From: Cytophagales bacterium Ga0077538
Lineage (GTDB): Bacteria > Bacteroidota > Bacteroidia > Cytophagales > Cyclobacteriaceae
Reading direction: 5' to 3'
Assembly (NCBI GenBank): GCA_001464155.1
Contig: LNEN01000179.1
Location: forward strand, 1-37,935
Length of the DNA stretch: 37,935 nucleotides
This document shows positions 1-21,135 of this stretch, piece after piece (the stretch's first letter is position 1; the number at the start of each line of letters is the position of its first letter). The translations under genes were made by a program, and so were the position numbers. Under the pieces are notes generated by a model that saw only the letters and a program-made list of their open reading frames with translations, searched no databases and was not told where the DNA came from.

Positions 1-430
1 ACTCCGTGATAATGAAGTCATACTGGTCACCTTCGCCCAACATCATGATGTTGCGCTTGATTTCGTCAGTAATGTGTGGGATTACCTGAACCGTCTTTCC
101 CAAATACTCGCCTTTGCGCTCTTTGGTGATGACGTTGTTATAGATACGGCCCGTAGTAACGTTATTAGCCTGAGAAGTAGGCACATTGAGGAAGCGCTCG
201 TAGTGACCTAAGTCAAGGTCGGTTTCGGCTCCGTCATCGGTAACATAGCATTCCCCGTGTTCATAGGGGTTTAATGTACCCGGGTCAATATTAATATAAG
301 GATCAAACTTCTGAATAGTTACGCGATAGCCCCGTGCCTGCAGTAAACGGGCCAGGGAGGCAGCAATAATGCCCTTGCCGAGGGAGGAGGTTACACCCCC
401 GGTTACAAAAATGTACTTAACGTTAGACAT
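1..430 (-). CDS. pyrG: CTP synthase, 5' part (runs off the window)
   Basis: This frame is missing from the ORF track because it is open at the window edge; I translated it from the reverse complement. It makes CTP from UTP, ATP and glutamine in the cytoplasm. The 143 visible residues begin [13 protein letters not shown] and carry the P-loop-like segment [17 protein letters not shown]. They continue with the conserved [19 protein letters not shown] and [16 protein letters not shown] blocks that bind ATP, Mg and UTP in the synthetase half. The glutamine amidotransferase half lies outside the window. The ATG sits 32 bp downstream of a TACCTTTG promoter box. The gene is divergent from the giant adhesin gene across a 762-bp gap. 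The identification is very secure. Confidence 0.97.
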
Positions 431-1192: not shown

Positions 1193-4100
1193 ATGAGATT
1201 AGCTGTCTTCCTTATTAGTATTTCTCTTTTTAGCTTAAACTCGAATAGAGCATTTTCACAAGCTGATTTTACACAGGCAAGGCATGAGACTCTTTCTCAG
1301 CAAGATATAGATGTGTCTTTTGATCAAGCTATCAGTTTTTCTCCACTACCAGCTACTTCCGTAGGATGGTCAGTAACAATTGGTGGAACGGCTGTCCCGA
1401 TTACTTCTATAGGCACTTTTGGGCCAACCACAGTCCGTATTACCTTCGATGCCAGTGGAATAGCCGGTCATGGCGGAACTCAAGCATATCTTAAACCAGG
1501 TGAAGTACTCAGAGTAAGCTATAATGGCACTGGAAATTTAACTTCAATAGGCGGTGTCACCGCTTTTGCGAATCAGCAATCTCTTAATCAATGGGTATTT
1601 ACCTGTGATGATGTAGAATTTAAAACTCAGGGCATTATACCTGCAGACAGTCAAGACAATTGTGTTCCTGTAGTAATGGACTTTTACCAGTGGCAATTTT
1701 CTATGTCGCTCAGAATGCGAAACAGCTCCAACTTTACCACGGCTTTGGATGGATCGGGCCGTACTATAAACTCCAATTTCTTTTATAATTTTAACTGGGG
1801 TGATGCTACGGGGACAAGCGTTAATCCCTATTTATCCGATGTGACAGGGGCTTCGGCACCAAGTCTTATTGAGAATACAGTTTTCAGTGGAAGTCCAGGG
1901 GTATACTTTACTTCAAGACCAACAAAAAATTATCCTGCTACTACAACTCCTGCCCCAAATATTTGTAGTTGGGACGTGGTGGTTCGTCCTTTTTGGATTG
2001 GTATTCCTAACTGTAATGGTGATTCACAAACAACCATTTTTAACAACTGGGATACTGATAATGCAAACACAGGTGTATTAAATATGCCATTCAATCCTCC
2101 AGGAGTGGGGGAAACAAGTGACAGAATTTGCCTTGGTAATAATGTGAACATGCGTTTCACAGACCAAACCCAACTTAACTGTCGTCTTGCAGCTCCTGAA
2201 GCGAACAATCCTAACCAAGCAGTTCGTCATATTCGTATTGTTTATGGAAGTACTAATTATGCTGCCCCTGGAAACATCCCGGATATACATGTTGGAGGAG
2301 TACAGGTTACCAACTCCACTACAGGTGCGTTGCTGGCTCCCTATAATGCCAACCCAATTCTTGGAGGAGGGACCGGTTATGTGCCAACCGGAGCCGGGGG
2401 TGTAGGTGTACCAGACTTTAATGGAGTCATTCAACTACCCACACCGGTTTTAACATCCACATTGACAACCTACATGCAACAAATCACCACCTTGGTTGCA
2501 ACAAGTCAAGTTGTGGGCCAGCGTTTTTATGTTCGATTAGATTACTGGGATATTTGTAACCCTTATAATCCAATAAGTCCAGATGTCAATCGCGTTTCAA
2601 TTGAAAATTATGATGAAATTATTGGCAAACCCGTTGCACTAACAACAGCCGGACAATCCATCTGCTACACAACTCCCAATACTACTGCATTCAACTTTAC
2701 AGTCGCAAGTTCTATTGGGGGTTTGAGAACTGGCGTAAACTGGTACGCATCCCTTGCCAATGTTAGCTCAGGTACACGCATTACAAATCCTAACGGCACA
2801 AACAGTTTGACTTTTCCAGCATCCTCCTATACAACAGCAAATGGCACTGCCGTAAATTTTAGATCCGATAATGTTGGAGGGAGGTACTATTCCCTTTGGG
2901 CAACTCAGGTTCAAGGTGGAACAAATGCCTGTGAGAGTGATCCAATCGAAGTGGTGATCTATCAGCAACCTCAAATTAATGCGGGTGCTGATAATCCAAC
3001 AACACCTGTGGGTAGTACCCAAGTTTGTATAAACGATGTACAGGTATATACAACCAGTGCTCCTGGTGTCAAAACAATTGCAGCTAACAACTCTACCAAC
3101 GGAGCAGCATTAAATTTTCAGCTTGAAAATCTCTGGAGCGATGTGTTTGGTGCTGATGTTTCTGTTTCTCCAACAAATACAACAGGCACCACAACTTCTG
3201 CCACTTTTAGCTTCGCGGCTCAACCAAATCCCTCTACAACCAATAACATAAGTGTACGTAGACGTTACCGAACGACCGACCTTGTTTCTGTAGTAAGCCC
3301 TTTACCGGCACCTTTTACACTACCTACCTATACTATAGCGCCTCAAACATGTCAGAACAATAATGTTAGTTTGGCTGTCACTGTTTTTGGAGAGAGCAAT
3401 GGAGGTACCATTGCAGGAAGCCCCACAATTTGTGATGGATCAAGTACTGGAAACATGATATTGAGTGGTCACCGTGGATCAGTCCTTCAATGGGAGAGAA
3501 GTTATGATGACCCAGGACCAGCCCCTGCAGGTGCTTTTATTGCTATTGCTGGTACTGGTGGCTTAACCACCTTCTCTGAAATTCCTCCTAATGGACCGGG
3601 TACTTACAAGTACCGCGTCCTAGTTCAAAATCAAAATATTACAGGACCTTGTCCAAGTGCTACCACTATCGTTGCTAACCAAAACACAGTTGTCGTTAAC
3701 CCCGTCCCACCAAAACCGACAATCACACCTACCGGTGCCACCACTTTTTGTTTTGGAGGAAGTGTAACCTTAACCTCAAGTACGGTTGATGCGGCACGAT
3801 ATGATTGGTATAGAGGAGCAACTTTGGTGCAAAGTGGCGCTAGCAATACTATTGTACTCACCACTGTTGCTCAAAGTGGTAGTTATACAGTACAAACCTT
3901 TGGTATAGCGCCTTCTAATTGCCCAAGCATAGCTTCAGATCCTGAAGTTGTGACGATTAATCCATTGCCTGTTGCTGCAAATCCTACCGGTGGAGGGGCA
4001 GTTTGTTCAGGTAATCCGGCACCCGATATTGAATGGGCAATTTCTAATGGTACAGGACCTTATGCGGTAACCTATACCATCACTAAAAATCCTGGAGCAG

Positions 4101-7100
4101 TAGTTTCAGGTCCTTTTGTTGTTAATAATGTTACGAGTCCATTTCTTATAGATGATCCAAATCCAGTTGGAATAGGAGGAGATACGTTTGATTATAAGAT
4201 TACAAACATCCAAGATGCGAATGGCTGTTTTGCTAATCCAATTACACTGGCAGCCGTTCCTGCAGGGCAAGTTTCTATTGGAGGAACCGCACCCGTACTG
4301 GATGGACCTGTTAGCTTAAGTTTAAGTGCTGCCTGCGATGATGGAGGCAGTACTTCCAATCCACAGTTGGTTTTTGGACTTACAGTTGCCTCAGCTAATA
4401 CTGCAGGATTTATTCTAAACTATACCGTTGATGGTGGCGGTAACCGAACAAAAAATTTTAATACGGATGCGGCTGGTGATCCTACTGTAGGTACTCAGGT
4501 TATCTTTTCAGATGCGGAGTTGAATACCCTATTACCTTCACCCCATGTGATTCGAATTGTATCGATCATTTCACCATCCACTTGTCAACTTCTTATAGGT
4601 CAGAATTTAAATTTTACAGTTAATCCTCGACCGAGCCCACCAGTCAATCCAGGTAACGTAATTGCTTGCTCTGATGTAGTTGGAACTACTTCTGTTTTGG
4701 TAAATAATCCTGGAGCAGGATTAACGGTAGACTGGTATGATGTTCCTGCCCCCGGTGGCGTGCTATTGGCAAACGGTGTTCTTTCATTTGTTCCTGGAGC
4801 CGCGGGAACCTATTATGCCGAAACCCGAAATACTACTACTGGATGCACGAGCACATTACGCACGGCAGTAACGCTCACCTCTGATCCACTTCCATCACCT
4901 GCAAACGCAGGAGCATCTTTTTCAACCTGTAGTACCAGTGAAACTCTTTTGGGTGTGCCAGCATTTCCAGCCAGTGCAACAGGTACATGGTCTGTAGGCT
5001 CTGCTATTTATTATCAGACCTTTTCATCAGCTGATAACAATGCGGGCTTCACAGCCGGAGGCTCCTTTATTCCACCCAAGGATTTAAGTTGGACATTGAA
5101 TACTTCTAATGGTGTTTTTGCTGATCCTGCAACTGATTACATCAGAGTTAATGCTGGAAGATTAGAAGCACAGGATGTGGATGATAATGTAGGAGGTCAG
5201 TTTGTAGATTGGCAGTCCACTTCCATTAATATTTCAGCCTTCCCTGGTGGGGTAGATGTCTCTTTAGATTTAAGTCAAAGCGGAGCAAATGCCGGAGATG
5301 GAGTATCTTCTTTTTACCGTATAAATGGTGGTGCCCTTACACCTTTTTCAGTTAACCCATCACTACTAGGGGCCTTTGCGGCCTCCACAGCATCTGCACC
5401 TGGATTAATTGGAAATACACTGGAGATTGTTGTACGAATAGAACTTGCTGGGAATGGACAGTTTATTTTTCTTGACAATGTTTTTGTAAGACCTTCCGGA
5501 GTAGTCTTACCGAGTATTACTGATGTTAATCTGGCTACCACAACGGTGAGTAATTTGCAAGTTGGAGCAAATGTATTTACCTGGACTGTTAGCAGTCAGT
5601 TTGGAGTTTGTTCTCCCACTACTTCATCTGCAACGATTACCAGAAACCCTCTTCCAGTAGCGTTAGATCCGAATCCTGCTGTGTGTGAATCATCTTTTGG
5701 ATTAACAGAGGCAAATGGTATTGATTTAACCGTTTATAATGATGGAGTAACAGGAATTATTGGATCAGCAAATAGAACTATTCAATATTTTTCTGATCCC
5801 GGCCGAACAATCCTTATTGGAGCACCTGTTAACAACGTTACCCATAATGAAGTTTTTTATACAAGAGTAACGAAGACTGATCTCGCACCTAATTGTACAC
5901 AAGATGGAATTATTACCATTCGTGTTAACCCTCTCCCTTCCACTAACGATCAAGTATTTGAAATTTGTGAGGAAGCAGTAAGCAGTGCAGATAAAGACAA
6001 TAATAATTTACCTATTCTCTTCAATGATCTGGTTACAGGTATTGCAGGTTCTACCAACAGGACAGTGACTTGGTATGTCGATCCAGGTGTGCCGGTTAGT
6101 CTACCCTCTGATTTAGTTACGCTTGTACCTACCCCTAGCGATGTAGATGATGTTACGGATGGAGAACGCTTTTATGCCGTTGTTGAAAACACATTAACGG
6201 GTTGTGAAGATGTAGCCTTTGTAGAATTTGACATCCGACCACGACCCGCTGCCAATCCTATATCAGGATCAGCGAGTGTCTGCGCAGGTACAAATATTAT
6301 CTTATATCAAATCGGTACTGTAGTGCCAGGCTCTACCTATTCCTGGAACTTGCCTCCTGATGGAGCCGGCTTTGTGCGCTTTGCCGGGGGTGGACCGAAT
6401 GACTTCTTTGTATTGCTTCAGTTCCCATCAGTAATAACACCACCGAACGATTCCTATAATATTAGTGTAACAGAAACCTCTCCCAATCCTGATGCTTGCA
6501 CGGGTGTAGCAAACTCCTTAACGATTACCGTTGAAACAAGTCCATCTCCAAATCCTATCATTGGACCCAACCCAGTTTGTAAAACGGAAACGGAAGTTTA
6601 TCAGGTAACCACTATCGATCCGTTGAACACCTACCAGTGGTCGATAACGGCCGGTGATGCGGCCATTGTAGGCCCCGCCAGTGGTACAGGTCTTGGTTCT
6701 ATTACAGTTGATTTCGGAACGTCCGCTTCGTCTACCATTCGCGTAGTGGAACAAAGTCCAACGGGTTGTTCGATTGCAGGAGGACAAACCTTGGTGGTGA
6801 ATGCCAATGATCAACCTACCATGACATCACCGGCTACGGCCACCGTATGTAGTGGTTTGGCGGTATCCACAGCATTAAACTTTGTAGCGAGTATTCCATT
6901 ATCAACTTTCAACTGGCAAGTAATTAATGTTACGGGAACAGTTACAGGAACAGCACTGGGTAACACAGGTTCAGGAAATATTGGACAAACGATTGTCAAT
7001 ACAACAGGGGGTGTAGCATCTGTCACCTATCGTGTAACACCAACTTCACCTGATGGCTGTCAAGGTCCTTTTCAGGATGTGGTGGTATCCATTACTCCTC

Positions 7101-10100
7101 AACCCGTTATTGTTACGGGACAAGCACCCATTGCTTGCAGTGGTGAACCTGTAAACAGAGAAATTTTCTTAACACCGCTTAATCAGCCGGTGGCTACCAT
7201 TTTTGATTGGCCGGCACCTGTTATGTCAGATGCTTCTGTTCAAGGCACTGCGAAGAACGTAGCGGCAGGAATTGCCGGGACTTTCCACATTACGGATGTA
7301 CTGGTCAATCTTTCCAATGCACCCATCACAGCCACCTATACAGTTACGCCATCGAACGGTCTGTGTAATGGAGCTCCAGAAACAGTTATTGTTACTGTAA
7401 ATCCTGAACCAATCGGTGTCGATGACAACACCCCAATTATTTGCAGCGATGCACTTGTCAATTATAACCTCTCCAACAATATTGCTACGCTGGGCAATAA
7501 CTTAATAACAGGAACAACCTATTCCTGGATAGCCACCGCCAATCCGAATGTTACCGGGGAGAGTGTAGTAGCGCAAAGTGGCGCCACCATTACGGATGCG
7601 TTGAGTAATACTACCGCATCAGATCAGGTTGTGGTATACACCGTAACCCCTACTAGTTCTTTAGGCTGTTTAGGAAACACCTTTACGATTTCCGTTACTG
7701 TACGCCCTGAACCGGTTGCGACTAATGATGTACTGACCATTTGTAGTGATAGTCCGCTAACGTACAACCTGCAGAACCGGGTGAACTTATCGGGCAATGG
7801 ACTGGCTTCTAACTTTACATGGCTCGCTGCTTCTAATGCGAATGTCACAGGAGAAAGTACAGCCCTTCAAAATACCGGAGTCATTACCGATGTTCTTACC
7901 AACGTAACCAATACCGATCAGGTGGTGGTATATACCATCACGCCTACGGGTACTAATGGTTGTGTGGGTTCTTCGTTTACCTTGACAGTAACCGTTCGTC
8001 CAGAGCCTGTAGGTGCAGATGATTCCTTCACTACCTGCAGTGATGTTGCTTTAAGCTATAATCTGACCAACAACATTACTACGCTGGGGAATAACCTGAC
8101 GGCTAGCTTCTCATGGGTGGCTTTAAATAATCCAAATGTTACAGGGGAGAGTACCACGCCTCAAGCGGGTAATATGATCAATAACACACTTACCAATATT
8201 ACTAACAGCAATCAAGTGGTGGTGTATACCGTTACTCCCACAGGGACTAATGGTTGTCCTGGAGATGATTTCACCGTGAGCGTTACAGTTCAGCCGGAAC
8301 CGAGAGGTGTAAATGATGGCCCCATCGATGTGTGCAGCAATGTCGCCTTTAACTACTCTTTGCAAAATAATGTTAACACCTTGGGGAATAGCGTCACGGC
8401 CAATTTTACCTGGTCAGCCGCAGCCAATGGAAATGTTACTGGTGAGAGTACTGCCCTTCAAGCCGGTGGAACCATTACCGATGTACTGAGAAACGTAACT
8501 AACTCAGATGAACTCATCACCTACACTGTTACGCCAACCGGCACGAATGGATGTGCAGGAAATTCGTTCACGGTTACTTTTAGAGTGCAACCTGAGCCAG
8601 TGGGTGTCAACGATGTAAAAACGATCTGTAGCGATGCTACCGTTAGTGTTGATTTGCAGGATAACGTTACCACGCTGGGAAATAACCTGACTTCCAATTT
8701 TAGTTGGCAAGCGGCCGCTAACGGCAACGTAACTGGTGAGAGCACCACTCCACAGGCATCTTCTATGATTACAGATGCCTTGAGTAATATCACAAACTCA
8801 GATCAGGTAGTGCTCTATACCGTAACACCAACCGGCACAAACGGGTGCGCAGGTGTACCCTTTACCATTTCGGTAACGGTTCGCCCAGAGCCCATTGGTG
8901 TGAATGATGCAAAAACAATTTGCAGTGATGAAATTGTTACGTATGATTTGTTAAGTAATGTGACATCCTTAGGAAATGGCTTGCCAGCCACCTTCTCCTG
9001 GATTGCCGCCTCCAATGGAAACGTATTAGGAGAAAGTACATCCGCTCAGGCAGGTGGTATGATTACCGATGTTCTTAACAACGTCACCAACACCGATCAG
9101 GTAGTCGTTTATACCATTACACCGACCGCCTCTGGTAGCGGTTGTGTGGGGTCACCATTTACGATTACAGTAACGGTACGTCCGGAACCCAAGGGCACGG
9201 ATGCACCGAAAACGATTTGTAGTGATGAAAGCGTAGCCTTTGATTTACAATTGAATGTTAATACACTTCCCGGTAATAGTCTCCCCGCTACCTTTAGCTG
9301 GGTAGCAGCCTCCAATGGGAATGTTACTGGCGAGAGTATCGTTCCGCAAGCAGGCAACACCATTAATGATGTATTGAATAATGTGACCAATGCTAATCAG
9401 GTGGTGGTGTACACGGTTACGCCAACGGGCACGAATGGTTGTATAGGTAATCCTTTTACAATTACAGTAACTGTACGCCCGGAGCCGTTGGGTGTAAATG
9501 CTACGAAGTCTATCTGTAGCGATGAAAATGTTAATGTAGACTTGCAGAATAACGTCACGACTCTTGGCAATAACTTACCGGCCACGTTTAGTTGGATAGC
9601 TTCACCGAATGCCAGTGTGAGTGGTGAGAGCACTTTACCACAAGCGGGTGCATCCATTAATGATGTACTTACCAATGTAACGGGTAGTGATCAAGTGGTT
9701 GTGTATACCGTAACTCCCACGAGTCTTTTAGGTTGCCTTGGAAACTCTTTCACGGTTACAGTAACTGTACAATCAGAACCTACTGCGCCTACCGGTACAG
9801 GTCTTATTTGCAGTGATGCGACTGTCAATTTCAATTTACAGAATCATGTGATTTCGGTTGGAAATGGTCAAGCCTCTACCTTCTCCTGGATTGCCACCTC
9901 TAATGGATCGGTAACAGGCGAAAGCACAAGCCCTGTAGTGGGAAGCACCATTACAGATGTACTCAACAATATCAGCAATGTTGATCAAGTGGTGCGCTAC
10001 ACGGTTACCCCAACGGGTACCAATGGTTGTATAGGCAATGCTTTCTTTGTCGATATAACGGTCCGCTCAGAACCAAGAGGTGCCAATGCACCTGCCACCA

Positions 10101-13100
10101 CCTGCAGTGATGTAGCATTGAATATCGATCTTCAGAATAATATTTCAACGCTAGGCAACAGTCAGGCTTCAACGTTTAGCTGGGTTGCTGCTGCGAATGG
10201 TCTGGTAACAGGTGAGAGTGTAGTGCCGCAGGCCTCTGCTTTTATTACGGATATACTGACTAATAAAACAGGTGTTGACCAGACAGTCGTGTACACCGTT
10301 ACCCCCACAGGTACCAATGGTTGCGTGGGTGATAATTTTACGATTACGGTTACTGTGCAGTCAGAGCCCACAGGAGATGATGATGTGGTGCCTATTTGCA
10401 GTGACAGTAACGTTAACTACGATTTACAGAATAACAATGTGAACGTATTGGGTAATAGCCAGGCGGCTACCTTCACTTGGATTGCCACCGCAAATCCGAA
10501 CGTAACGGGAGAGAATACAGTCCTGCAGACAACCAGTGTGATTAACGATGTACTGAACAATGTGACGGGTGTTAATCAGACAGTGGTGTACACAGTTACA
10601 CCAACCGGTACGAATGGTTGTCTTGGAGATGTGCTTACGGTTTCGATTACTGTACGTCCAGAACCTTTGGGTGTAAATGACACGAAGACGATCTGTAGCG
10701 ACAATAACGTGAGTTACAATCTTCAGGATAATATCAACAACCTGGGTAACTCGCTTATATCCAACTTTACCTGGGTGGCAGCCGCAAATGCGAATGTCTC
10801 AGGCGAAAGCACGATTGCTGTTGCCGGAAATGTGATCAATGATAACCTGAATAACGTAACCAGTATCGACCAGGTGGTTGTTTACACCGTAATACCCACC
10901 GGTACGAATGGTTGTGTAGGAAACTCGTTTACTGTTCAGGTTACTGTTCAACCCGAGCCACAAGGCATTGCAGGTACAAAGACTATTTGTAGTGACCTCG
11001 CTGTTAATTACAATCTTCAAACTGATAACATCAATGCGGGAGGAAACAATGTTGCCTCTACGTTTAGTTGGATTGCTGCAGCCAATCCGAATGTTACAGG
11101 GGAGAGCACAACAGGCCAGAACACAGGAACCATTAGTGATGTCTTAAATAATGTTACCGGTATTGCGCAAACCGTTGTCTACACCGTTACTCCGACTGGT
11201 GTCAATGGTTGTTTGGGTAATGATTTCACGGTGACCATTACGGTGAATCCGGAACCTGTGGGTCAGAATGATACCGACACTTCGTGTAATGTTCCTTTAA
11301 GCTACGATATACAGGCCAGCAACATCAATGTCTTTGGTAATAGTGTAAGCAGTGTCTTCACCTATACGGTGCTTTCATCGGATCAACCGAATGTACCAGC
11401 AGGACCTGATAGGGTAGGAGCCAATGCATTACCGATCACGGATAGCTTCACCAACAGTACTGGGGTGGATGTGTTCATGACGTATACGATTACACCCATC
11501 AGTTCACCTAATGGTTGTGCCGGAAACACCTTCACCTACATCGTCACCATTAAATCAAGACCTATTGGTGCAGATTATACAGAAACACCAAATGTTTGTT
11601 CGAGTGTTCCGTTTGTGGTGAATCCTCAAACCCCTGGTATTACAAATGGTGTAGTCAGTACTTTTACCTGGACTGCTGCGTATGCGCCCGGACTCACCGG
11701 AGGTGTAGGAGCGGGTGTTGGTACCATAGGGGAAACCTTATCGAATGTAGGGGCAGTACCTCTGAGTGTTATTTATACAGTAACGCCAAGTGCTGGTCCT
11801 TGTCAGGGACCTGATTTTGATATTACGGTGATCATCGATCCACAACCGGTAACAGATCCTTCATTAGCGACAAAGACTATTTGTAGTGATTTGATTTCGA
11901 ACATACTCTTAAATACAAATGGTATTTCAGTAGGCGCTACCAATTGGGATGTAGATGTAGTGAGTGTGGATGCTAACCTTGTACCGAATGCAGGCAATGC
12001 TGTTGATCCAGGACTTGCGGAAGTGGCTAACTACATTCAAAACGACAGATACACGAACGTTTCGTTTACTCCTGGCAATGTGATTTATAAAGTTACCCCT
12101 ATTGGTCCACCCGCTACCAGTTGCCGCGGTGTTGACACGTTTGTAACCCTAACTGTAAATCCAGAGCCGGTGATGAATCCTGCTTTGGCTACTCCAGCCC
12201 CTGTTTGTAGCGATGAGATCATCGGTGTTTCCTTAAGCACCAATGGCACCTCAGTGGCAGCGGCCTCTTACATTTTTGTTAGCGTATCAACATTCCAGGC
12301 AGGTAATGCGGCAGCGGATCCAGATGAGACGGGTCCGGGTGACAGACTCGCCTCGGTAATTCAAAACGACAGCTATACAAACCTGACGACAGCTGCCTTC
12401 ACCAGAACGTATCAGATTAAGCCAAAGAGTGCGGCTGGTTGTTTGGGTGATTTATTAAATATACCCGTGCAAGTACTTCCTGAACCAGACTTTACTTTCA
12501 CGATACCACCTCCTATCTGTAGCACTGATTTAATTGGTTTGCAATTGGATACTACGCCAGGATCGGTTCAGGTAGATGAGTATGAAGTAACCTTTATCAA
12601 TTGGGAAACCATTCCAGCTCCGGGTCTCTTACCAGGCGGAAGCAACATTGCTATCGGATCTATCTTACCAGCAGTGGCCGGTTCTTTCACCATTAACGAT
12701 AGCTACGTGAATGGGCAGAACGTATCGCTGAATGCGACTTATTCTATTCGTCCTTATGCTCCTACTACATTAGGCAAGCGTTGCGTGGGCGATGTGAAGC
12801 AAGCTGTAGTGGGCATTCGTCCGTCACCCATTGTATTGGAAGACCTGGACGAAATTGTATGTAACGATGCGACCAACGGTATTTTGATAAACACAAAAAC
12901 AAGCAGTGCGCCAGCAAACTCTTTTGAAATTGTTCGCCCGGCTCTTCCTGCTGGTTTGAGCTTAGGATCATACGTTCCAGGCACAAGTGTGGTAACTGGA
13001 AATTCCACTACGGCCATTGCGAATGATCGTTTTGTGAATACAACCAACAATCCTATACCGGTGATCTATACGGTGCGTGCGAACACTGATGCGGTGCCTG

Positions 13101-16100
13101 CCAGTGGTTGCTTTGGTCCTGCGGAGCAAGTGCAAGTATTGGTAGAACCTCAGATTTTGGTAACACTTGATGCTACTACGAATTTGAAACCAGATATCTG
13201 TGGTGGGACTGACATGACCAACATTGACTTAGAGTCACCATCCAATCCATCTGCAGGAGCAGTGACCTTTAACTTTACGGTGAGTCCTTCTATTTCAGGT
13301 GCCGTACCAGGCACTAACTTTAGTGAAACGGATTTCATTGAACAGGCCTTACTCAACACGACCAATGCTCCGATTAATGTTACCTATTCTATTACACCAC
13401 GTGCTAATAGTGCAGCAGGTGGTTTAGGATGTGTAGGTGTACTGAATACAACGGTTGTAAGTGTTCGACCTTCTCCGAAACTCACACCAACTCCTGCCAA
13501 CTTTACGATTTGTGAAGGCGAACCCTTGGGTGTTGACTTTGCGACCCCTACGACCACCGGTGCCGGTACCAGTGCCGTTGCGTTTGAGTTGATTCGGGTG
13601 GAAGATCCCAATCTGGCGCCTGCAGCTCCGGCTAATGGCATTAGTGGATTCAATAATGTCTTCCCTAGTAACTATGCGATAGGAGCAAATGTATTGAACG
13701 ATGTGCTGACCAACAGCAACGTAGATGGTTTGCAGCACAGCATTCGCTACGCTTTTATTCCTAAGTACACCATTACCTCTAGAGCCTTCGAATGTCGTGG
13801 TGAAGAATCTTATGTGACAGTATTGGTAAGTCCTCGCGCTACCATTACCGGTTTCGATGACATCAATGATGCCATTGCCGAAGGTGATCCGTTGAACTTA
13901 CTTCCGGGTATTCCGGTAGAAGTGTGTTCGGGTGAACCTTTCGATCGTAAGATCCTTTTCACAGGAGCCGATGCGGGTTCTACCAATCTTTCCTGGACTC
14001 GTGTGGCTGATGCCGGAGTAACCGGTTCATCAGGCGGGGCAGGCGATATTTTATCGCAGGTACTCTTTAACTCCACGAATACTGATGTGAGCCTGGTGAC
14101 CTATACGGTCACTCCGAAATCCTTTAACTGTACAGGAGCTCCGGTAAATCTGGTGGCAATTGTATTGCCCGTTGCTAAAGTGGGAACCCTGGCCAGCACC
14201 TTTAAGATTTGTGCCGATGGTACTTTTGAAGTTGATCCAATTCCTTCGCCTACTGTAAATGCGAATTTCTATTGGGCAGTCGACAATCCAGATCCAACCT
14301 TTGTGACACTACAATCAACAACGGCACAACCTGGTACTGTTATCAGTGACACCTGGTTGAATCAGTCACCTACCTTTGACCTGGCTTCGCTGACCTACAC
14401 AATCTCACCTTTTGTGAGCAAGACCACAGGACAAGAATGTTTTGGCACTGATAAGTTTGTAACCGTGAATGATGCCTTTATCTGCGAAGGCGATGAGGAA
14501 CTCTTAACCTTCCTCAACAATGGCTTGAGCAAGTTTAGCCTGAAGTATAGTGAAGGTGGAAGTGAGGTAGTTGTGAACAACGCAGGTGCTGTGGTCAATC
14601 TTTTTGTAACGCCTGCCGCTACCACTACTTATACACTACTTTCTGTAACCGACTCTTACGGATGTGAGCAGACTACCTTTACAGGAAATGCTGTAGTAAC
14701 GGTAAACGTTGCCAATACCAATGCCGATTTCACTGTGCCGGGAGCAGCGATTTCGTGTAGTCCTTTCCCTGTTGATTTTGAGTACGATCAACAAAATGGA
14801 ATTGAATATACCTGGCGCTGGGCCGATGGTGAGTCTGACTCTGTATATGTGGCAGGGGCCACCGTACCAAACGAATCCGTGCGTCACATCTTTACCAACT
14901 TGTCTACTTCGTCCACCAGAAGTTTCAAAGTAGAATTAGAAACCCGTATACCGGATGGCGCTGATGCTGACAATAACTACCCAGGTGGTTGTGCCGATCG
15001 TTCTGACAAAACCGTTCAGGTACACCCGGTAGTGGTGGCGGCTGTTACGGTAGATAAAGATGCTATCTGTAGTGGTGAAACTATTCAGTTTAGAAATTCA
15101 TCTCGTGGTGTGAAGAGCGACACCTGGTTCTACCGAGTTCAAGGTTCTACCGGTCAGTTAGATGTGCGCACTGATACCTATACCGGATCAGAAAGACCAC
15201 CAAGCATTACCTCCTTTACAATGGAGAATCTGATCAGCAACCCTTTGGTGTTTGAAGTGGTATACCAGGCAAGAAACGAAAATTGTTCTGCTCCGGATTC
15301 TGTTACAAGCATTACGGTTTACAGAGGCATGACGGCCGACTTTACCGCTGCTGTGCTAGGACCATACATTGGAGGTCATGCGTATGTGAATGTCACCAAT
15401 ACTTCGAATCCTATTGATGCCGTTGACTTTACCTACGAATGGAACTTTGGTGAGGATGCTGTGCCGGCTGAATTTAATGGCACCACACCGACTAACCCAT
15501 TGGATTATGTGACACCGGGTCAGAAGGAGATTTCGTTGTTGGTTACAAACATTCTGGCTTCGACTGTAGGCTTGTCGTGCAGTGATCTTGTCATCAAAAC
15601 AATTGATATTGAGGTTCCTCCGCTGCAAGCAGACTTTGATGCCATCCCGCTGGCAGCCTGTTTCCCGACAGATATTACAATCGTAGACAACCGAGCCACA
15701 GGCGATGTGTTTGAATGGGAAGTAATTGATGAGGGAGGACGTACCTCTGCTACCTCCAATGCCAACTTACCTGTCTTTGCGATTCCAAATCCTGGTAAGT
15801 ATACCATTTTCCTCACCACCCGAAATTCGTTTACGGGTGATGCAGAAAGTACTTCGAAGGAATTGGAGATTTTTGAATTGCCTACGGCTTCTTTTGAGTT
15901 AAGACCTACCGTGGTATTTATTCCCGATCAGCAAATCACCACGTTCAACTTTAGTGATGGAGCCAATCAGTATGAGTGGGATTTTGGTGATGGCAATACG
16001 TCCATTGACTTTGAACCCACCTTTACGTACCGAGTGGAAGGTGAATACCCCGTTACCTTGGTGGCTGGATTCAATAATGGCTCGCACGATGTAGATGGCG

Positions 16101-16474
16101 ATGGGGTAACGGATGGTGCCATCATCTGCTACGATACCTTAACGCGTACCGTACAAGCAAAGGATGGAGGAGTGACGAGAATTCCTAACTCATTTACGCC
16201 TAACCCGAATGGACCGAACGGAGGCAATGCCGGGAATGGTTCTTTCAACGATGTATTCTTACCAATTACAAAAGGAGTGGAAGAATTCCTGATGCAGATT
16301 TTTGATCGTTGGGGTAACCTGGTGTTTGAAAGTCGTGATAAGAACCAGGGCTGGGATGGCTATCATCAAAATGGTAGTCTCATGCCTGCGGGTGTGTATG
16401 TGTATAAACTGGAGTTGCGCTTGTCGAATGGACAGCGAACGAACCAAGTTGGAGATGTAACCCTCATTCGTTAA
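1193..16474 (+). CDS. Giant multidomain secreted adhesin-like protein, T9SS type B sorting domain
   Basis: This 5093-residue protein is probably a cell-surface adhesin, exported by Sec and then T9SS, of the general SprB-like class. Residues 1-23 form a signal peptide (MRLAVFLISISLFSLNSNRAFSQ). Residues about 30-140 resemble an Ig-like/SWM-type domain. The next roughly 1900 residues are mixed Ig/PKD-like domains, with a jelly-roll-like insertion near 1273-1436. Residues 2071-3352 are 13 closely related units of about 99 residues, each with an ICSD cysteine and a second cysteine in NGCxG; more diverged units follow. Four PKD-type domains lie near 4530-4960 (for example YEWDFGDGNTS). Residues about 4997-5093 are a gliding-motility-associated C-terminal domain (IPNSFTPN, IFDRWGNLVFES, GVYVYKLEL). 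A PorP/SprF gene starts 9 bp later, the standard partner. No enzymatic domain is evident and the ligand is unknown. Confidence 0.93.
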   Translation: MRLAVFLISISLFSLNSNRAFSQADFTQARHETLSQQDIDVSFDQAISFSPLPATSVGWSVTIGGTAVPITSIGTFGPTTVRITFDASGIAGHGGTQAYLKPGEVLRVSYNGTGNLTSIGGVTAFANQQSLNQWVFTCDDVEFKTQGIIPADSQDNCVPVVMDFYQWQFSMSLRMRNSSNFTTALDGSGRTINSNFFYNFNWGDATGTSVNPYLSDVTGASAPSLIENTVFSGSPGVYFTSRPTKNYPATTTPAPNICSWDVVVRPFWIGIPNCNGDSQTTIFNNWDTDNANTGVLNMPFNPPGVGETSDRICLGNNVNMRFTDQTQLNCRLAAPEANNPNQAVRHIRIVYGSTNYAAPGNIPDIHVGGVQVTNSTTGALLAPYNANPILGGGTGYVPTGAGGVGVPDFNGVIQLPTPVLTSTLTTYMQQITTLVATSQVVGQRFYVRLDYWDICNPYNPISPDVNRVSIENYDEIIGKPVALTTAGQSICYTTPNTTAFNFTVASSIGGLRTGVNWYASLANVSSGTRITNPNGTNSLTFPASSYTTANGTAVNFRSDNVGGRYYSLWATQVQGGTNACESDPIEVVIYQQPQINAGADNPTTPVGSTQVCINDVQVYTTSAPGVKTIAANNSTNGAALNFQLENLWSDVFGADVSVSPTNTTGTTTSATFSFAAQPNPSTTNNISVRRRYRTTDLVSVVSPLPAPFTLPTYTIAPQTCQNNNVSLAVTVFGESNGGTIAGSPTICDGSSTGNMILSGHRGSVLQWERSYDDPGPAPAGAFIAIAGTGGLTTFSEIPPNGPGTYKYRVLVQNQNITGPCPSATTIVANQNTVVVNPVPPKPTITPTGATTFCFGGSVTLTSSTVDAARYDWYRGATLVQSGASNTIVLTTVAQSGSYTVQTFGIAPSNCPSIASDPEVVTINPLPVAANPTGGGAVCSGNPAPDIEWAISNGTGPYAVTYTITKNPGAVVSGPFVVNNVTSPFLIDDPNPVGIGGDTFDYKITNIQDANGCFANPITLAAVPAGQVSIGGTAPVLDGPVSLSLSAACDDGGSTSNPQLVFGLTVASANTAGFILNYTVDGGGNRTKNFNTDAAGDPTVGTQVIFSDAELNTLLPSPHVIRIVSIISPSTCQLLIGQNLNFTVNPRPSPPVNPGNVIACSDVVGTTSVLVNNPGAGLTVDWYDVPAPGGVLLANGVLSFVPGAAGTYYAETRNTTTGCTSTLRTAVTLTSDPLPSPANAGASFSTCSTSETLLGVPAFPASATGTWSVGSAIYYQTFSSADNNAGFTAGGSFIPPKDLSWTLNTSNGVFADPATDYIRVNAGRLEAQDVDDNVGGQFVDWQSTSINISAFPGGVDVSLDLSQSGANAGDGVSSFYRINGGALTPFSVNPSLLGAFAASTASAPGLIGNTLEIVVRIELAGNGQFIFLDNVFVRPSGVVLPSITDVNLATTTVSNLQVGANVFTWTVSSQFGVCSPTTSSATITRNPLPVALDPNPAVCESSFGLTEANGIDLTVYNDGVTGIIGSANRTIQYFSDPGRTILIGAPVNNVTHNEVFYTRVTKTDLAPNCTQDGIITIRVNPLPSTNDQVFEICEEAVSSADKDNNNLPILFNDLVTGIAGSTNRTVTWYVDPGVPVSLPSDLVTLVPTPSDVDDVTDGERFYAVVENTLTGCEDVAFVEFDIRPRPAANPISGSASVCAGTNIILYQIGTVVPGSTYSWNLPPDGAGFVRFAGGGPNDFFVLLQFPSVITPPNDSYNISVTETSPNPDACTGVANSLTITVETSPSPNPIIGPNPVCKTETEVYQVTTIDPLNTYQWSITAGDAAIVGPASGTGLGSITVDFGTSASSTIRVVEQSPTGCSIAGGQTLVVNANDQPTMTSPATATVCSGLAVSTALNFVASIPLSTFNWQVINVTGTVTGTALGNTGSGNIGQTIVNTTGGVASVTYRVTPTSPDGCQGPFQDVVVSITPQPVIVTGQAPIACSGEPVNREIFLTPLNQPVATIFDWPAPVMSDASVQGTAKNVAAGIAGTFHITDVLVNLSNAPITATYTVTPSNGLCNGAPETVIVTVNPEPIGVDDNTPIICSDALVNYNLSNNIATLGNNLITGTTYSWIATANPNVTGESVVAQSGATITDALSNTTASDQVVVYTVTPTSSLGCLGNTFTISVTVRPEPVATNDVLTICSDSPLTYNLQNRVNLSGNGLASNFTWLAASNANVTGESTALQNTGVITDVLTNVTNTDQVVVYTITPTGTNGCVGSSFTLTVTVRPEPVGADDSFTTCSDVALSYNLTNNITTLGNNLTASFSWVALNNPNVTGESTTPQAGNMINNTLTNITNSNQVVVYTVTPTGTNGCPGDDFTVSVTVQPEPRGVNDGPIDVCSNVAFNYSLQNNVNTLGNSVTANFTWSAAANGNVTGESTALQAGGTITDVLRNVTNSDELITYTVTPTGTNGCAGNSFTVTFRVQPEPVGVNDVKTICSDATVSVDLQDNVTTLGNNLTSNFSWQAAANGNVTGESTTPQASSMITDALSNITNSDQVVLYTVTPTGTNGCAGVPFTISVTVRPEPIGVNDAKTICSDEIVTYDLLSNVTSLGNGLPATFSWIAASNGNVLGESTSAQAGGMITDVLNNVTNTDQVVVYTITPTASGSGCVGSPFTITVTVRPEPKGTDAPKTICSDESVAFDLQLNVNTLPGNSLPATFSWVAASNGNVTGESIVPQAGNTINDVLNNVTNANQVVVYTVTPTGTNGCIGNPFTITVTVRPEPLGVNATKSICSDENVNVDLQNNVTTLGNNLPATFSWIASPNASVSGESTLPQAGASINDVLTNVTGSDQVVVYTVTPTSLLGCLGNSFTVTVTVQSEPTAPTGTGLICSDATVNFNLQNHVISVGNGQASTFSWIATSNGSVTGESTSPVVGSTITDVLNNISNVDQVVRYTVTPTGTNGCIGNAFFVDITVRSEPRGANAPATTCSDVALNIDLQNNISTLGNSQASTFSWVAAANGLVTGESVVPQASAFITDILTNKTGVDQTVVYTVTPTGTNGCVGDNFTITVTVQSEPTGDDDVVPICSDSNVNYDLQNNNVNVLGNSQAATFTWIATANPNVTGENTVLQTTSVINDVLNNVTGVNQTVVYTVTPTGTNGCLGDVLTVSITVRPEPLGVNDTKTICSDNNVSYNLQDNINNLGNSLISNFTWVAAANANVSGESTIAVAGNVINDNLNNVTSIDQVVVYTVIPTGTNGCVGNSFTVQVTVQPEPQGIAGTKTICSDLAVNYNLQTDNINAGGNNVASTFSWIAAANPNVTGESTTGQNTGTISDVLNNVTGIAQTVVYTVTPTGVNGCLGNDFTVTITVNPEPVGQNDTDTSCNVPLSYDIQASNINVFGNSVSSVFTYTVLSSDQPNVPAGPDRVGANALPITDSFTNSTGVDVFMTYTITPISSPNGCAGNTFTYIVTIKSRPIGADYTETPNVCSSVPFVVNPQTPGITNGVVSTFTWTAAYAPGLTGGVGAGVGTIGETLSNVGAVPLSVIYTVTPSAGPCQGPDFDITVIIDPQPVTDPSLATKTICSDLISNILLNTNGISVGATNWDVDVVSVDANLVPNAGNAVDPGLAEVANYIQNDRYTNVSFTPGNVIYKVTPIGPPATSCRGVDTFVTLTVNPEPVMNPALATPAPVCSDEIIGVSLSTNGTSVAAASYIFVSVSTFQAGNAAADPDETGPGDRLASVIQNDSYTNLTTAAFTRTYQIKPKSAAGCLGDLLNIPVQVLPEPDFTFTIPPPICSTDLIGLQLDTTPGSVQVDEYEVTFINWETIPAPGLLPGGSNIAIGSILPAVAGSFTINDSYVNGQNVSLNATYSIRPYAPTTLGKRCVGDVKQAVVGIRPSPIVLEDLDEIVCNDATNGILINTKTSSAPANSFEIVRPALPAGLSLGSYVPGTSVVTGNSTTAIANDRFVNTTNNPIPVIYTVRANTDAVPASGCFGPAEQVQVLVEPQILVTLDATTNLKPDICGGTDMTNIDLESPSNPSAGAVTFNFTVSPSISGAVPGTNFSETDFIEQALLNTTNAPINVTYSITPRANSAAGGLGCVGVLNTTVVSVRPSPKLTPTPANFTICEGEPLGVDFATPTTTGAGTSAVAFELIRVEDPNLAPAAPANGISGFNNVFPSNYAIGANVLNDVLTNSNVDGLQHSIRYAFIPKYTITSRAFECRGEESYVTVLVSPRATITGFDDINDAIAEGDPLNLLPGIPVEVCSGEPFDRKILFTGADAGSTNLSWTRVADAGVTGSSGGAGDILSQVLFNSTNTDVSLVTYTVTPKSFNCTGAPVNLVAIVLPVAKVGTLASTFKICADGTFEVDPIPSPTVNANFYWAVDNPDPTFVTLQSTTAQPGTVISDTWLNQSPTFDLASLTYTISPFVSKTTGQECFGTDKFVTVNDAFICEGDEELLTFLNNGLSKFSLKYSEGGSEVVVNNAGAVVNLFVTPAATTTYTLLSVTDSYGCEQTTFTGNAVVTVNVANTNADFTVPGAAISCSPFPVDFEYDQQNGIEYTWRWADGESDSVYVAGATVPNESVRHIFTNLSTSSTRSFKVELETRIPDGADADNNYPGGCADRSDKTVQVHPVVVAAVTVDKDAICSGETIQFRNSSRGVKSDTWFYRVQGSTGQLDVRTDTYTGSERPPSITSFTMENLISNPLVFEVVYQARNENCSAPDSVTSITVYRGMTADFTAAVLGPYIGGHAYVNVTNTSNPIDAVDFTYEWNFGEDAVPAEFNGTTPTNPLDYVTPGQKEISLLVTNILASTVGLSCSDLVIKTIDIEVPPLQADFDAIPLAACFPTDITIVDNRATGDVFEWEVIDEGGRTSATSNANLPVFAIPNPGKYTIFLTTRNSFTGDAESTSKELEIFELPTASFELRPTVVFIPDQQITTFNFSDGANQYEWDFGDGNTSIDFEPTFTYRVEGEYPVTLVAGFNNGSHDVDGDGVTDGAIICYDTLTRTVQAKDGGVTRIPNSFTPNPNGPNGGNAGNGSFNDVFLPITKGVEEFLMQIFDRWGNLVFESRDKNQGWDGYHQNGSLMPAGVYVYKLELRLSNGQRTNQVGDVTLIR
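7403..11248 (+). repeat. 13 tandem ~296-bp repeats encoding PKD/Ig-like domains
   Basis: Residues 2071-3352 of the giant protein divide into 13 units of 98-99 residues. Each runs from PEP or SEP, through ICSD, a LGN segment, FSWIAA, VTGEST, INDVLNNVT and QVVVYTVTPTGTNGC, to FTVTVTV. The first unit starts at 7403. The 14th unit, at 11249, and the next two, at 11555 and 11840, are visibly diverged and mark the edge of the tight array. Codon choice differs between units even where residues are identical, so the array is not a fresh duplication. Confidence 0.9.
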
Positions 16475-16483
16475 TTTTCAGAG

Positions 16484-17515
16484 ATGATGAAGCGTTTACT
16501 TGTTGCTTTACTTGTTTTGATAGGAGTGGAGAATGTGATGGCTCAAGACCCTCAATTTTCTCAATACTATCAAGCTCCGCTTTATTTAAATCCGGGCTTT
16601 GCCGGAATTACACCGCAGCAACGCTTGGTGGTAAATCATCGTGTGCAATGGCCCAATCTGCCTCAGGCTTTTTCTACCTATGCCGCTTCGTACGACATAT
16701 TCGTAGAAGAGCTTCGCAGTGGTTTTGGATTCTTAGCGACTACGGATAAAATGGGTTCTGCCGGTTGGCGCACGACTACGTTCAATGGCTTGTATTCCTT
16801 TAAAGTAAAGTTGACGGAGAAAATTGTTTTCTCTCCGGGCTTAAGTTTTGGCTACGGCATCAATGGACTGGATCGAAACAAGTTGACCCTTGGGGATGGC
16901 TTAGAGTTTGAAGGACAATCCTTAGATCCGGATCTTAACAAATTGGGTAATCAATCCTATTTTGATTTTGGATCGGGCTTTATCTTTTACAGTCGTAACA
17001 TTTGGCTAGGGGCTGCCTTTCATCACATGAACCAACCCAACCTTTCGGTACTGAATGATGTAAGCCGTTTGCCAATGAAAACCTCTATTCATGGTGGGGC
17101 GAAATTGGCCTTGTATAAAGGTCCGCGAACCATCGCGCGAATGTCTTACTTAACACCTTCTTTTATTTATCGCACCCAGGGCAAAACGTTTTCCCAATTG
17201 GATGTGGGGATTAATTATCACATCGATCCTGTTTCAGTAGGTATTTGGTACAGAGGTAAGCCCTTTCAGCAAACGGTTATTAACAGTGTAACGCAAGATG
17301 CTATGGTTTTTTCTTTGGGAATGTATCTCAAGAATCTTTCTGTAGGCTATAGTTATGACTTCACTGTTTCAGAACTTCAAACGGCTTCAGGGGGTGCGCA
17401 CGAGATATCCCTTATCTATGAATTTGTAGCCAAGCCGCTTAACCGAAGCGTAAAGCGCAAATACAGATTGATCCCTTGTCCCTCCTTCAATAGCAAAGAA
17501 GGGTTCTGGAATTAA
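16484..17515 (+). CDS. PorP/SprF family type IX secretion membrane protein
   Basis: This 343-residue outer-membrane protein is the usual partner of type B T9SS cargo, needed for cargo export or surface attachment in SprF/SprB-type pairs. It has a signal peptide ending near MAQ, followed by the family hallmark DPQFSQYYQAPLYLNPGFAG. It then shows alternating beta-strand-like segments, including GFGFLATTDKMG and NIWLGAAFHHMNQPN, and a basic tail with a CP motif near the C-terminus (KRKYRLIPCPSF). Length fits the family. The gene starts 9 bp after the adhesin stop, so the two are almost certainly co-transcribed. The family is clear, but which member it is orthologous to cannot be told. Confidence 0.93.
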   Translation: MMKRLLVALLVLIGVENVMAQDPQFSQYYQAPLYLNPGFAGITPQQRLVVNHRVQWPNLPQAFSTYAASYDIFVEELRSGFGFLATTDKMGSAGWRTTTFNGLYSFKVKLTEKIVFSPGLSFGYGINGLDRNKLTLGDGLEFEGQSLDPDLNKLGNQSYFDFGSGFIFYSRNIWLGAAFHHMNQPNLSVLNDVSRLPMKTSIHGGAKLALYKGPRTIARMSYLTPSFIYRTQGKTFSQLDVGINYHIDPVSVGIWYRGKPFQQTVINSVTQDAMVFSLGMYLKNLSVGYSYDFTVSELQTASGGAHEISLIYEFVAKPLNRSVKRKYRLIPCPSFNSKEGFWN

Positions 17516-17744: not shown

Positions 17745-19163
17745 ATGAACCTTTCTTCTTCTCTTAGCCATCCTGTGTTTAAAACAGTTTCTGCTTGTGC
17801 CGCTCAACTCGGCCTGGAAACGTATGTGGTAGGAGGGTACGTGAGGGATATCTTGCTGAACAGACCCTCTAAAGACATTGATTTTGTTTGTGTGGGTAGC
17901 GGCATAGGCTTGGCGGAAGAAGTTGCCAAAGCACTGGTACCCAAAGTGCGTGTGAATGTGTTTAAGAATTTTGGTACGGCTCAAATTCCCTTCGATGATT
18001 TTGATCTGGAGTTTGTAGGGGCCCGAAAGGAGTCCTATCGAAGCGAATCGCGTAAGCCTATTGTAGAAGATGGAAGTTTGGAAGATGACCAAAAGAGGAG
18101 AGACTTTACCATCAACGCACTCGCCATCAGTTTGAATGAAGACACCTTTGGTGAATTGATTGATCCCTTCAACGGTGTGGAAGATTTAAAGAATAAAGTC
18201 ATCCGCACTCCGTTAGAACCCAGCATCACTTTTTCGGACGATCCCTTGCGCATGATGCGCGCCATTCGCTTCGCGAGTCAGCTTAATTTTGATATTGATG
18301 CTAATTCCTTTGAAGGGATAATACAACAAGCGGATCGACTGACCATTGTTTCGCAAGAGCGGATCATTGATGAATTAAACAAGATCATTTTGAGCCCGGT
18401 GCCTTCCTACGGCTTTAAGCTATTATTTCAGAGCAAACTCTTGCATCAGTTTTTTCCAGAGCTAGTGGCCTTGCAAGGCGTAGAGTATGTGGGCGGCAAT
18501 GCACACAAGGATAACTTTTATCACACATTGCAAGTGCTGGATAATGTTTCTAAAATGTCGAACGACCTGTGGTTGCGGTGGGCGGCCATCATGCACGACA
18601 TTGCCAAACCAGCCACCAAGCGATACGATCCTAAAGTAGGCTTTACTTTCCACGGTCATGAAGAGAAAGGTGCTCGGTGGACACCTAAAATTTTCAGAAG
18701 ATTAAAATTGCCCATGAATGATCGCATGGACTTTGTGCAAAAGTTAGTACGCCTTCATTTACGTCCCATCTCCCTGGTTAAACAAGTAACAGATTCTGCC
18801 ATCAGGCGTTTGCTATTTGAAGCAGGAGACGATGTTGATGCACTCATGATGCTCTGCCGGGCCGACATCACGTCTAAGAATCACGAAAAGGTGTCGCGCT
18901 TTCTTCAGAATTTTGACAGGGTTGAATTGAAGATGAAAGAGGTAGAGGCAAAGGATAGTATCCGTAATTTTCAGCCGCCTATTTCTGGAGAAGAGATCAT
19001 CCGCACCTTTAACCTGGCACCTGGTCCGCTGATCGGACAAATCAAGGAATATATAAAAGAGGCTATTTTGGAAGGTGAGATCCAGAACGATTATGAGCAA
19101 GCGCGTACGCTTATGTTAAAGTTTGCGGCAGAGAAGGGCCTTACGCCAGTTTCACAGGCTTAA
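17745..19163 (+). CDS. cca: CCA-adding tRNA nucleotidyltransferase with HD domain
   Basis: This 472-residue cytoplasmic enzyme adds or repairs the 3' CCA of tRNAs; a poly(A) polymerase role within the same superfamily is less likely. The class II nucleotidyltransferase head shows VVGGYVRDILL near residue 30, the metal-binding DIDFV near 48, then RRDFTINALA and DPLRMMRAIRFASQL. A C-terminal HD phosphohydrolase-like domain begins near residue 255 (HKDNFYHTLQVLDNV, MHDIAKP). The ATG start fits the promoter box 30 bp upstream. The next gene begins about 70 bp downstream on the same strand. Confidence 0.93.
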   Translation: MNLSSSLSHPVFKTVSACAAQLGLETYVVGGYVRDILLNRPSKDIDFVCVGSGIGLAEEVAKALVPKVRVNVFKNFGTAQIPFDDFDLEFVGARKESYRSESRKPIVEDGSLEDDQKRRDFTINALAISLNEDTFGELIDPFNGVEDLKNKVIRTPLEPSITFSDDPLRMMRAIRFASQLNFDIDANSFEGIIQQADRLTIVSQERIIDELNKIILSPVPSYGFKLLFQSKLLHQFFPELVALQGVEYVGGNAHKDNFYHTLQVLDNVSKMSNDLWLRWAAIMHDIAKPATKRYDPKVGFTFHGHEEKGARWTPKIFRRLKLPMNDRMDFVQKLVRLHLRPISLVKQVTDSAIRRLLFEAGDDVDALMMLCRADITSKNHEKVSRFLQNFDRVELKMKEVEAKDSIRNFQPPISGEEIIRTFNLAPGPLIGQIKEYIKEAILEGEIQNDYEQARTLMLKFAAEKGLTPVSQA

Positions 19164-19802: not shown

Positions 19803-20311
19803 AGGACGAGTTGAAGGATTTTGTACAAATGCACCGGAGTGCTTTTGACGACAAGGAGGTTCCTGCACAGGTTTGGGAAAATATTGATCAGTCGTTATTT
19901 AAAAAGAGTTTTCAGATCAGGCCCATACAGTACTGGCAGGCAGCAGCCGTTGTATTTTTTGCGTTGTCTTCCTTTTTGTTGGTGCGCAATGTACTTCCCC
20001 TAGCGAAGCCCGGTGAGGCCAAAGAATTTGCAGACACCGAAGCCTTTTACACACAACAAATTCAGGAAAAGGTAGCCTTGATTCATTCTGTTAATACCAA
20101 TGATTTAAGTGCCTTTGGACAAGACTTACAGCAACTGGAAGCCATGTACGCTGTGCTTAAAGAAGAGCTGGAAAAAAGACCTAGCGAGAAGGTGAAGGAT
20201 GCACTGATTCTTAATCTAATGGTGCGTACAAATTTGTTGAATAAGCAATTACAGGAATTGGACAGCGCACAAGAGTCTACCGACCGCGAAGAAGCACCGA
20301 TCAATTCATAG
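19799..20311 (+). CDS. Putative anti-sigma factor, single-pass membrane protein
   Basis: This 170-residue protein is not recognised by a specific motif. A cytoplasmic N-terminal stretch of about 42 residues precedes one transmembrane helix (YWQAAAVVFFALSSFLLV). An outward-facing, charged and probably helical region follows (QDLQQLEAMYAVLKEELEKR). No zinc-binding HxxxCxxC motif is present. The anti-sigma role is inferred from its start overlapping the ECF sigma stop by four bases and from its topology. Its 3' end overlaps the convergent permease gene by about 11 bp. Confidence 0.6.
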   Translation: MKDELKDFVQMHRSAFDDKEVPAQVWENIDQSLFKKSFQIRPIQYWQAAAVVFFALSSFLLVRNVLPLAKPGEAKEFADTEAFYTQQIQEKVALIHSVNTNDLSAFGQDLQQLEAMYAVLKEELEKRPSEKVKDALILNLMVRTNLLNKQLQELDSAQESTDREEAPINS

Positions 20312-21135
20312 CGTTCACCAACTTCTTGCGTAGTATGCCGTGACTTGGGGAAAAGAGAAAGGCCAGCGCGAAGACTACACCACTGCAGGAAGCTATGGCT
20401 GCAGCGATCGAACCATCGATCCATAGCAACACATGCATAGACAAGCATGCGCGGAAAGGAATCTGTTAGCAAGTAGGCTGTAGCGGCCGGAACAATCAAC
20501 AAAGCCACCACAAGGATGGCTCCCACCGATTCAAAAGATGCCACAGTAGTAGTAGAAACAAGGGCCATGATAAGGTAGTGCCACAAGGCAGTAGAAAAGC
20601 CCAGGGAGGCAGCATAACCAGGATCGAAAGAAGTGAGTAGAAGTTCTTTGAAGAAGAGTGCGAGCACCAGTAGAATTAGCACCAGCACCAGGCTCATCAC
20701 CACAACCGCTTTGGGTGCGAGTACAAAGCCACTGTCCAGTATAATCATGTCTAGTGGTGTGTAGGCTATTTCGCCATACAACACACAATCTTGATCTAAG
20801 TCGACCTTACCGGCAAATAGTGATATCAGCACCACCCCAATGGCAAAGAGCCAGGTAAAGGTTACACCAATGGCAGCATCACTTTGCAGTCGTGCTTTTT
20901 TATGAAAGAATTCGATTAGGAAAGTGGTGAACACGCCTAACACCCCAGCCCCAATTAACATAGTTACTGAATCACGACTACCGGAGAGCAGAAAGGCGAT
21001 CACAATTCCGGGTAGCACTGCATGGGAGATGGCATCACCTATAAGCGCCATTCGTCTAAGGATTAAAAAGCATCCCAACAAGGCACAGCAAATGGATACG
21101 AGAGAGGCGGTGAGTATAATCCAAAAGTCGTTCAT
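20301..21135 (-). pseudogene. Metal ABC transporter permease (Znu/Mnt/Tro type), frameshifted near the C-terminus
   Basis: This is the second membrane permease of the metal-uptake operon (ABC-3 family). The first 238 or so residues are normal: RRMALIGDAISHAVLPGI, several TM helices, then ILVVALLIVPAATAYLLTD. After FPRMLVYACV the track frame degrades to non-membrane sequence and runs on to 20083. The +1 frame instead gives LLWIDGSIAAAIASCSGVVF, then ALAFLFSPSHGILRKKL and a stop at 20301-20303, exactly what the family has. Compared with the sister permease here, about 13-15 residues are missing at the junction (20415-20445). A non-triplet deletion of about 40 bases explains both gap and frame change. 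It could be a real mutation or an assembly error. Stop to stop, it overlaps the convergent putative anti-sigma gene. Confidence 0.8.

Follow-up and report, generated by a model that had tools for sequence, protein, structure and literature searches.

A giant T9SS type B cargo, probably an adhesin, and its PorP/SprF-family carrier with a single tail cysteine, encoded beside pyrG in a member of the Cyclobacteriaceae

The window analysed here is a stretch of 37,935 nucleotides from contig LNEN01000179.1 of Cytophagales bacterium Ga0077538. At its left end lies the 5' end of pyrG (CTP synthase; 2..430, minus strand), a divergent upstream neighbour which was named by eye from the sequence and serves as a marker of the locus. 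The main feature is a pair of genes on the plus strand, identified from their ORFs and profile matches: the first (1193..16474) specifies a 5093-aa T9SS type B cargo and probable adhesin, and the second (16484..17515), separated from it by 9 bp, a 343-aa carrier of the PorP/SprF family. The coordinates and lengths of the pair in the initial annotation are exact. The next gene after the carrier is a CCA-adding-enzyme-like ORF at 17745, which is followed by an RNA polymerase sigma-factor-like ORF (both named by eye); reading of this downstream neighbour gave no PorE-like gene adjoining the carrier gene. The intergenic region of ca. 760 bp ahead of the adhesin gene (431-1192) includes short recurring words, e.g. 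GTATGCG and CTGCGTA, and a search for promoters and terminators in it gave nothing above chance. Further along the window a metal ABC transporter permease ORF (20083-21135, minus strand) has an apparent frameshift near 20430; the natural C-terminal part lies in a different reading frame, and the listed ORF instead extends antisense into the gene beside it, which indicates a sequence error or a pseudogene.

The cargo opens with a probable Sec signal peptide, recognised by eye (residues 1-22, MRLAVFLISISLFSLNSNRAFSQA; 1193..1258, plus strand, as are all features of this protein). Residues 23-625 (1259..3067) form an N-terminal head which is conserved in orthologues and lacks a family match. It had been described as SWM-like, a label that could not be upheld: Pfam gave no match to the head even at E=10, solved structures yielded nothing in a profile search, and the structure predicted from six sequences is poor (mean pLDDT 42). 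Next comes an Ig_7 domain (PF19081, by Pfam match; residues about 1147-1232, 4631..4888). The Ig-like stretch is split into two halves by an insert at residues 1272-1434 (5006..5494), itself without a Pfam match, for which AlphaFold2 and Foldseek back the earlier suggestion of a jelly roll at the level of the fold. The model, built from three sequences only, has a pLDDT of 66 and a pTM of 0.69, and its top Foldseek match is the galactan-binding module CBM61 (2xom; E 2.2e-5, TM 0.55-0.62). Further matches are to Eph ligand-binding, CBM22, CBM4 and MAM domains and to the gingipain cleaved-adhesin domain; together these predicted-structure matches support a jelly-roll or CBM-like fold without indicating a ligand.

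The stalk consists largely of PKD_5 (PF19406) domains. The thirteen tight repeats noted initially (residues 2082-3355, 7436..11257) are real, with a spacing of 98-100 aa and a mean DNA identity of 61%, but rather than standing as a block of their own they form the homogenised central part of a run of about 22 PKD_5 copies from residue 1884 to 4428 (counted at E < 1e-3 with a model built from the adhesin gene). A genome scan yielded 20 PF19406 matches over the cut-off, all within the adhesin gene and none in any other gene of the genome. A PKD-like region (14480..16150) precedes the sorting domain; of the four PKD domains claimed there, the last (approximately residues 4922-4966) alone scores over the Pfam cut-off, and more are visible by eye. 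No family of SprB repeats was found among the Pfam matches to the protein at E 0.1, and a search of the literature on the domain and on gliding in the family found nothing relevant. Its architecture suggests that the protein is probably an adhesin.

The C-terminus (16181..16468) carries the type B T9SS sorting domain (TIGR04131/CHU_C) that the initial annotation had proposed. The match to TIGR04131 is marginal (36.3 bits against a cut-off of 35; 39.8 bits in the genome scan), that to PF13585 (CHU_C) stronger (49.4 against 27). The downstream gene likewise proved to be of the PorP/SprF family, with 249 bits to TIGR03519 (cut-off 90.55), 1e-64 to PF11751 and coverage of the full barrel; by sequence the carrier showed no resemblance to solved structures. 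In the genome as a whole there are nine matches to TIGR04131 and nine to PorP, seven of the latter over the cut-off. Profile searches of the genome also detected core genes of the secretion system: SprA (2459 bits), GldM (272 bits), a fragment of GldL at the start of contig C266 and, in addition, a short form of GldJ (614 bits). The presence of these core genes and the match of the C-terminal domain above the type B cut-off, if a narrow one, both support the original reading of the pair as a T9SS type B cargo and a PorP/SprF carrier of its own. GldK was not found in the draft genome, the short-form GldJ being the top match of both the GldK and the GldJ models. All nine relatives searched (9/9) have GldK above the cut-off, in several just downstream of the core PorP. 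Since contig C169 stops soon after a core-type PorP and C266 begins inside gldL, gldK was probably lost in the assembly gap between the two.

Orthologous proteins of 3847-5660 aa occupy the same place in other genomes. Most of the relatives in which the head was detected have a protein of 4463-5660 aa beside pyrG, and an orthologous carrier follows wherever the contig continues; pyrG adjoins the adhesin gene in G001, G002, G003, G004, G015, G021, G068 and G098. As these orthologues are of similar size, chance is excluded as an explanation of the observation. The pyrG-adhesin-porP locus has been passed down throughout the family. The head occurs in congeners and in other genera of the family, including records titled Cyclobacteriaceae and Flammeovirgaceae, and heads of orthologues have 49-63% identity to that described here. 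In two genomes of the same genus (G001 and G002) the position of the gene, the sorting domain (72-73% over the final 150 residues) and the carrier are the same; their heads are strongly diverged, with only a weak match of 28% over residues ~300-460. For most genes in the comparison, tight repeats are closer to their own neighbours than to the repeats of the orthologue, a pattern which fits expansion within each lineage. Against G003, residues 901-1200 have 92.7% DNA identity, compared with 73-81% for pyrG, porP and cca, and much of the adhesin gene is without DNA similarity; the near-identical stretch likely stems from exchange between species. In the sequences compared, the anchor and sorting signal are thus fixed and the outer parts (head and stalk) change.

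The only cysteine of the carrier sits in its periplasmic C-tail (approximately the last 27 residues, ...RLIPCPSFNSKEGFWN; 17432..17512, plus strand), which ends ...IPCPSFNSKEGFWN and is nearly invariant in orthologues. A type B cargo requires its cognate PorP/SprF carrier, and in Flavobacterium johnsoniae some cargoes are mobile and others static, the mobile ones having no PorE gene nearby (PMC12618676). Both cysteines of the Cys-X-Cys in the C-tail of F. johnsoniae SprF are needed for gliding; Cys326 bonds Cys343 of GldK, and substitutions of the SprF cysteines spare export and disrupt sustained movement (PMC12635249). The tail of the present carrier lacks Cys-X-Cys, its single cysteine lying in IPCPSF. 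In relatives, GldK retains a cysteine, within the motif GNVSEWC, that may correspond to GldK Cys343.

C-tails were surveyed in 188 PorP/SprF proteins, some belonging to relatives and others to a class-wide sample, drawn partly from among the matches listed, with linkage defined as a PorE gene within 1 kb downstream. The tail cysteine is absent in 31/33 carriers beside PorE (the proposed static anchor) and present in 83/155 without such linkage. In the same genome, the carrier on contig C214, which is followed by a PorE-like gene, has the tail VSPRYF, and core PorPs upstream of gldK in the relatives read end in the cysteine-free RTPR[FY]RH. No Cys-X-Cys tail occurred (0/188, class-wide sample included). 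Many genomes of the class have a PorP/SprF gene immediately upstream of gldJ (L271-L290). All 20 carriers fetched from this position have the tail cysteine, mostly as CPSF, the tails being CP[ST]F or similar, and most have a further cysteine ~12 residues earlier. The association of cysteine with PorE linkage gives a raw Fisher value of 1.5e-7. A tree from which the tail was left out places the carrier in a clade of 71 (support 99); 67 of these have Cys tails, two have PorE neighbours, and the 20 gldJ-linked carriers are all included. On the tree the tail cysteine changes eight times and PorE linkage twelve times. Both tail class and PorE linkage largely follow clades, and the correlation is not phylogenetically independent; since a test on independent pairs was not significant, the raw value is not used as proof.

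By membership the gene pair belongs with the T9SS type B cargoes and their PorP/SprF carriers, and it may work like SprB/SprF of F. johnsoniae, with which it shares a giant type B cargo, a PorP/SprF-family barrel, the lack of an adjoining PorE and a cysteine in the C-tail. It differs from that system in its stalk, which is PKD_5 and has no family match to SprB repeats, in the one cysteine (CPSF) of its carrier tail where SprF has Cys-X-Cys, and in its position beside pyrG. Fjoh_3952, which is static, with its carrier Fjoh_3951 and PorE-like Fjoh_3950, and PG1035-PorP-PorE of Porphyromonas gingivalis likewise combine a type B cargo with a cognate PorP-like carrier, but PorE is lacking here and PorE-linked carriers nearly always lack the tail cysteine. 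PorG of P. gingivalis, whose outer-membrane barrel co-purifies with PorKN (PMC12635249), also has one cysteine in a periplasmic C-tail; unlike the carrier it serves as a T9SS component, comes from another family and has no cargo. The core PorP of the porP-gldK-gldL-gldM-gldN cluster shares the TIGR03519 family with the carrier but not its cysteine.

From these data we would picture the gene product as a long rod, rich in cysteine and built of about 50 Ig/PKD-like domains, which Sec would carry across the inner membrane and the T9SS translocon SprA across the outer one. The barrel encoded 9 bp downstream would collect it by its type B sorting domain, and the adhesin would stay on the barrel with the N-terminal head outward. 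That the protein is exported and displayed by its cognate carrier in this manner is, judging by homology, very probable. The single cysteine of the barrel's C-tail could then form a disulfide with GldK in the gliding track, whereby the adhesin would be towed along the cell as SprB is. We lean, with modest confidence, towards such a coupling to the moving track because no PorE follows, the tail cysteine is kept, and the clade of the carrier holds the Cys tails linked to gldJ. Against it stand the one cysteine here, where F. johnsoniae SprF needs both, the lack of Cys-X-Cys in all 188 carriers, the clade-bound distribution of tail class and PorE linkage, and the absence of GldK from the draft genome. 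More tentatively, we suggest as a general rule that the C-tail decides attachment: a single-cysteine CPxF tail might suffice, with no second, resolving cysteine, to bond the moving GldK track, and a cysteine-free PRYF tail might mark PorE and a fixed anchor.

A different outcome, to which we give some weight though it is not our preferred one, is that the protein is exported and displayed by its own carrier but held still for attachment to surfaces or between cells, the cysteine having another use or none. The existence of static type B cargoes in F. johnsoniae (PMC12618676), the requirement of SprF for both cysteines (PMC12635249) when there is a single one here, and the clade-bound occurrence of the tail cysteine would all agree with a static adhesin; the lack of a PorE gene after the carrier, and a tail which resembles those of the gldJ-linked carriers rather than the PorE-linked ones, speak against it. 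It seems improbable that the rod is no adhesin at all and serves as a long scaffold, be it a matrix or cell-coat protein or a carbohydrate-gathering arm. Here the likeness of the insert model to carbohydrate-binding modules and a head without recognisable family or structure match have to be set against a head that diverges while its anchor stays fixed and a stalk whose repeats vary, which is the usual arrangement in adhesins. We reject the notion that collapsed or joined repeats produced the long ORF as an artefact of assembly, for although the gene is rich in repeats and the draft genome comprises 323 contigs, repeats at 61% DNA identity are easily separated in assembly and the long orthologues occur at the same place in other genomes.

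The pairing of a type B cargo with a PorP/SprF carrier is already known. What the locus adds is a sequence feature, the C-tail, which can be read in any genome of the Bacteroidota and may predict which adhesins the gliding motor pulls and which stay fixed. If track coupling is true, the pyrG-linked giant would be a main gliding adhesin of the family, presenting diverging heads on one motor-coupled anchor; a conserved sorting domain and carrier combined with a changing head and stalk also make the locus a useful case for learning what the heads bind.

Two further observations concern related genes. In G110 and G021 the carrier is followed by another gene with a type B C-terminal domain, of about 1250 aa (L069 and L070). 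The genome described here encodes a second giant type B protein of 4452 aa on contig C112 (L071), followed by a carrier with the cysteine tail RGLECPSYY and no detected PorE gene, and by these sequence features it is another candidate track-coupled adhesin.
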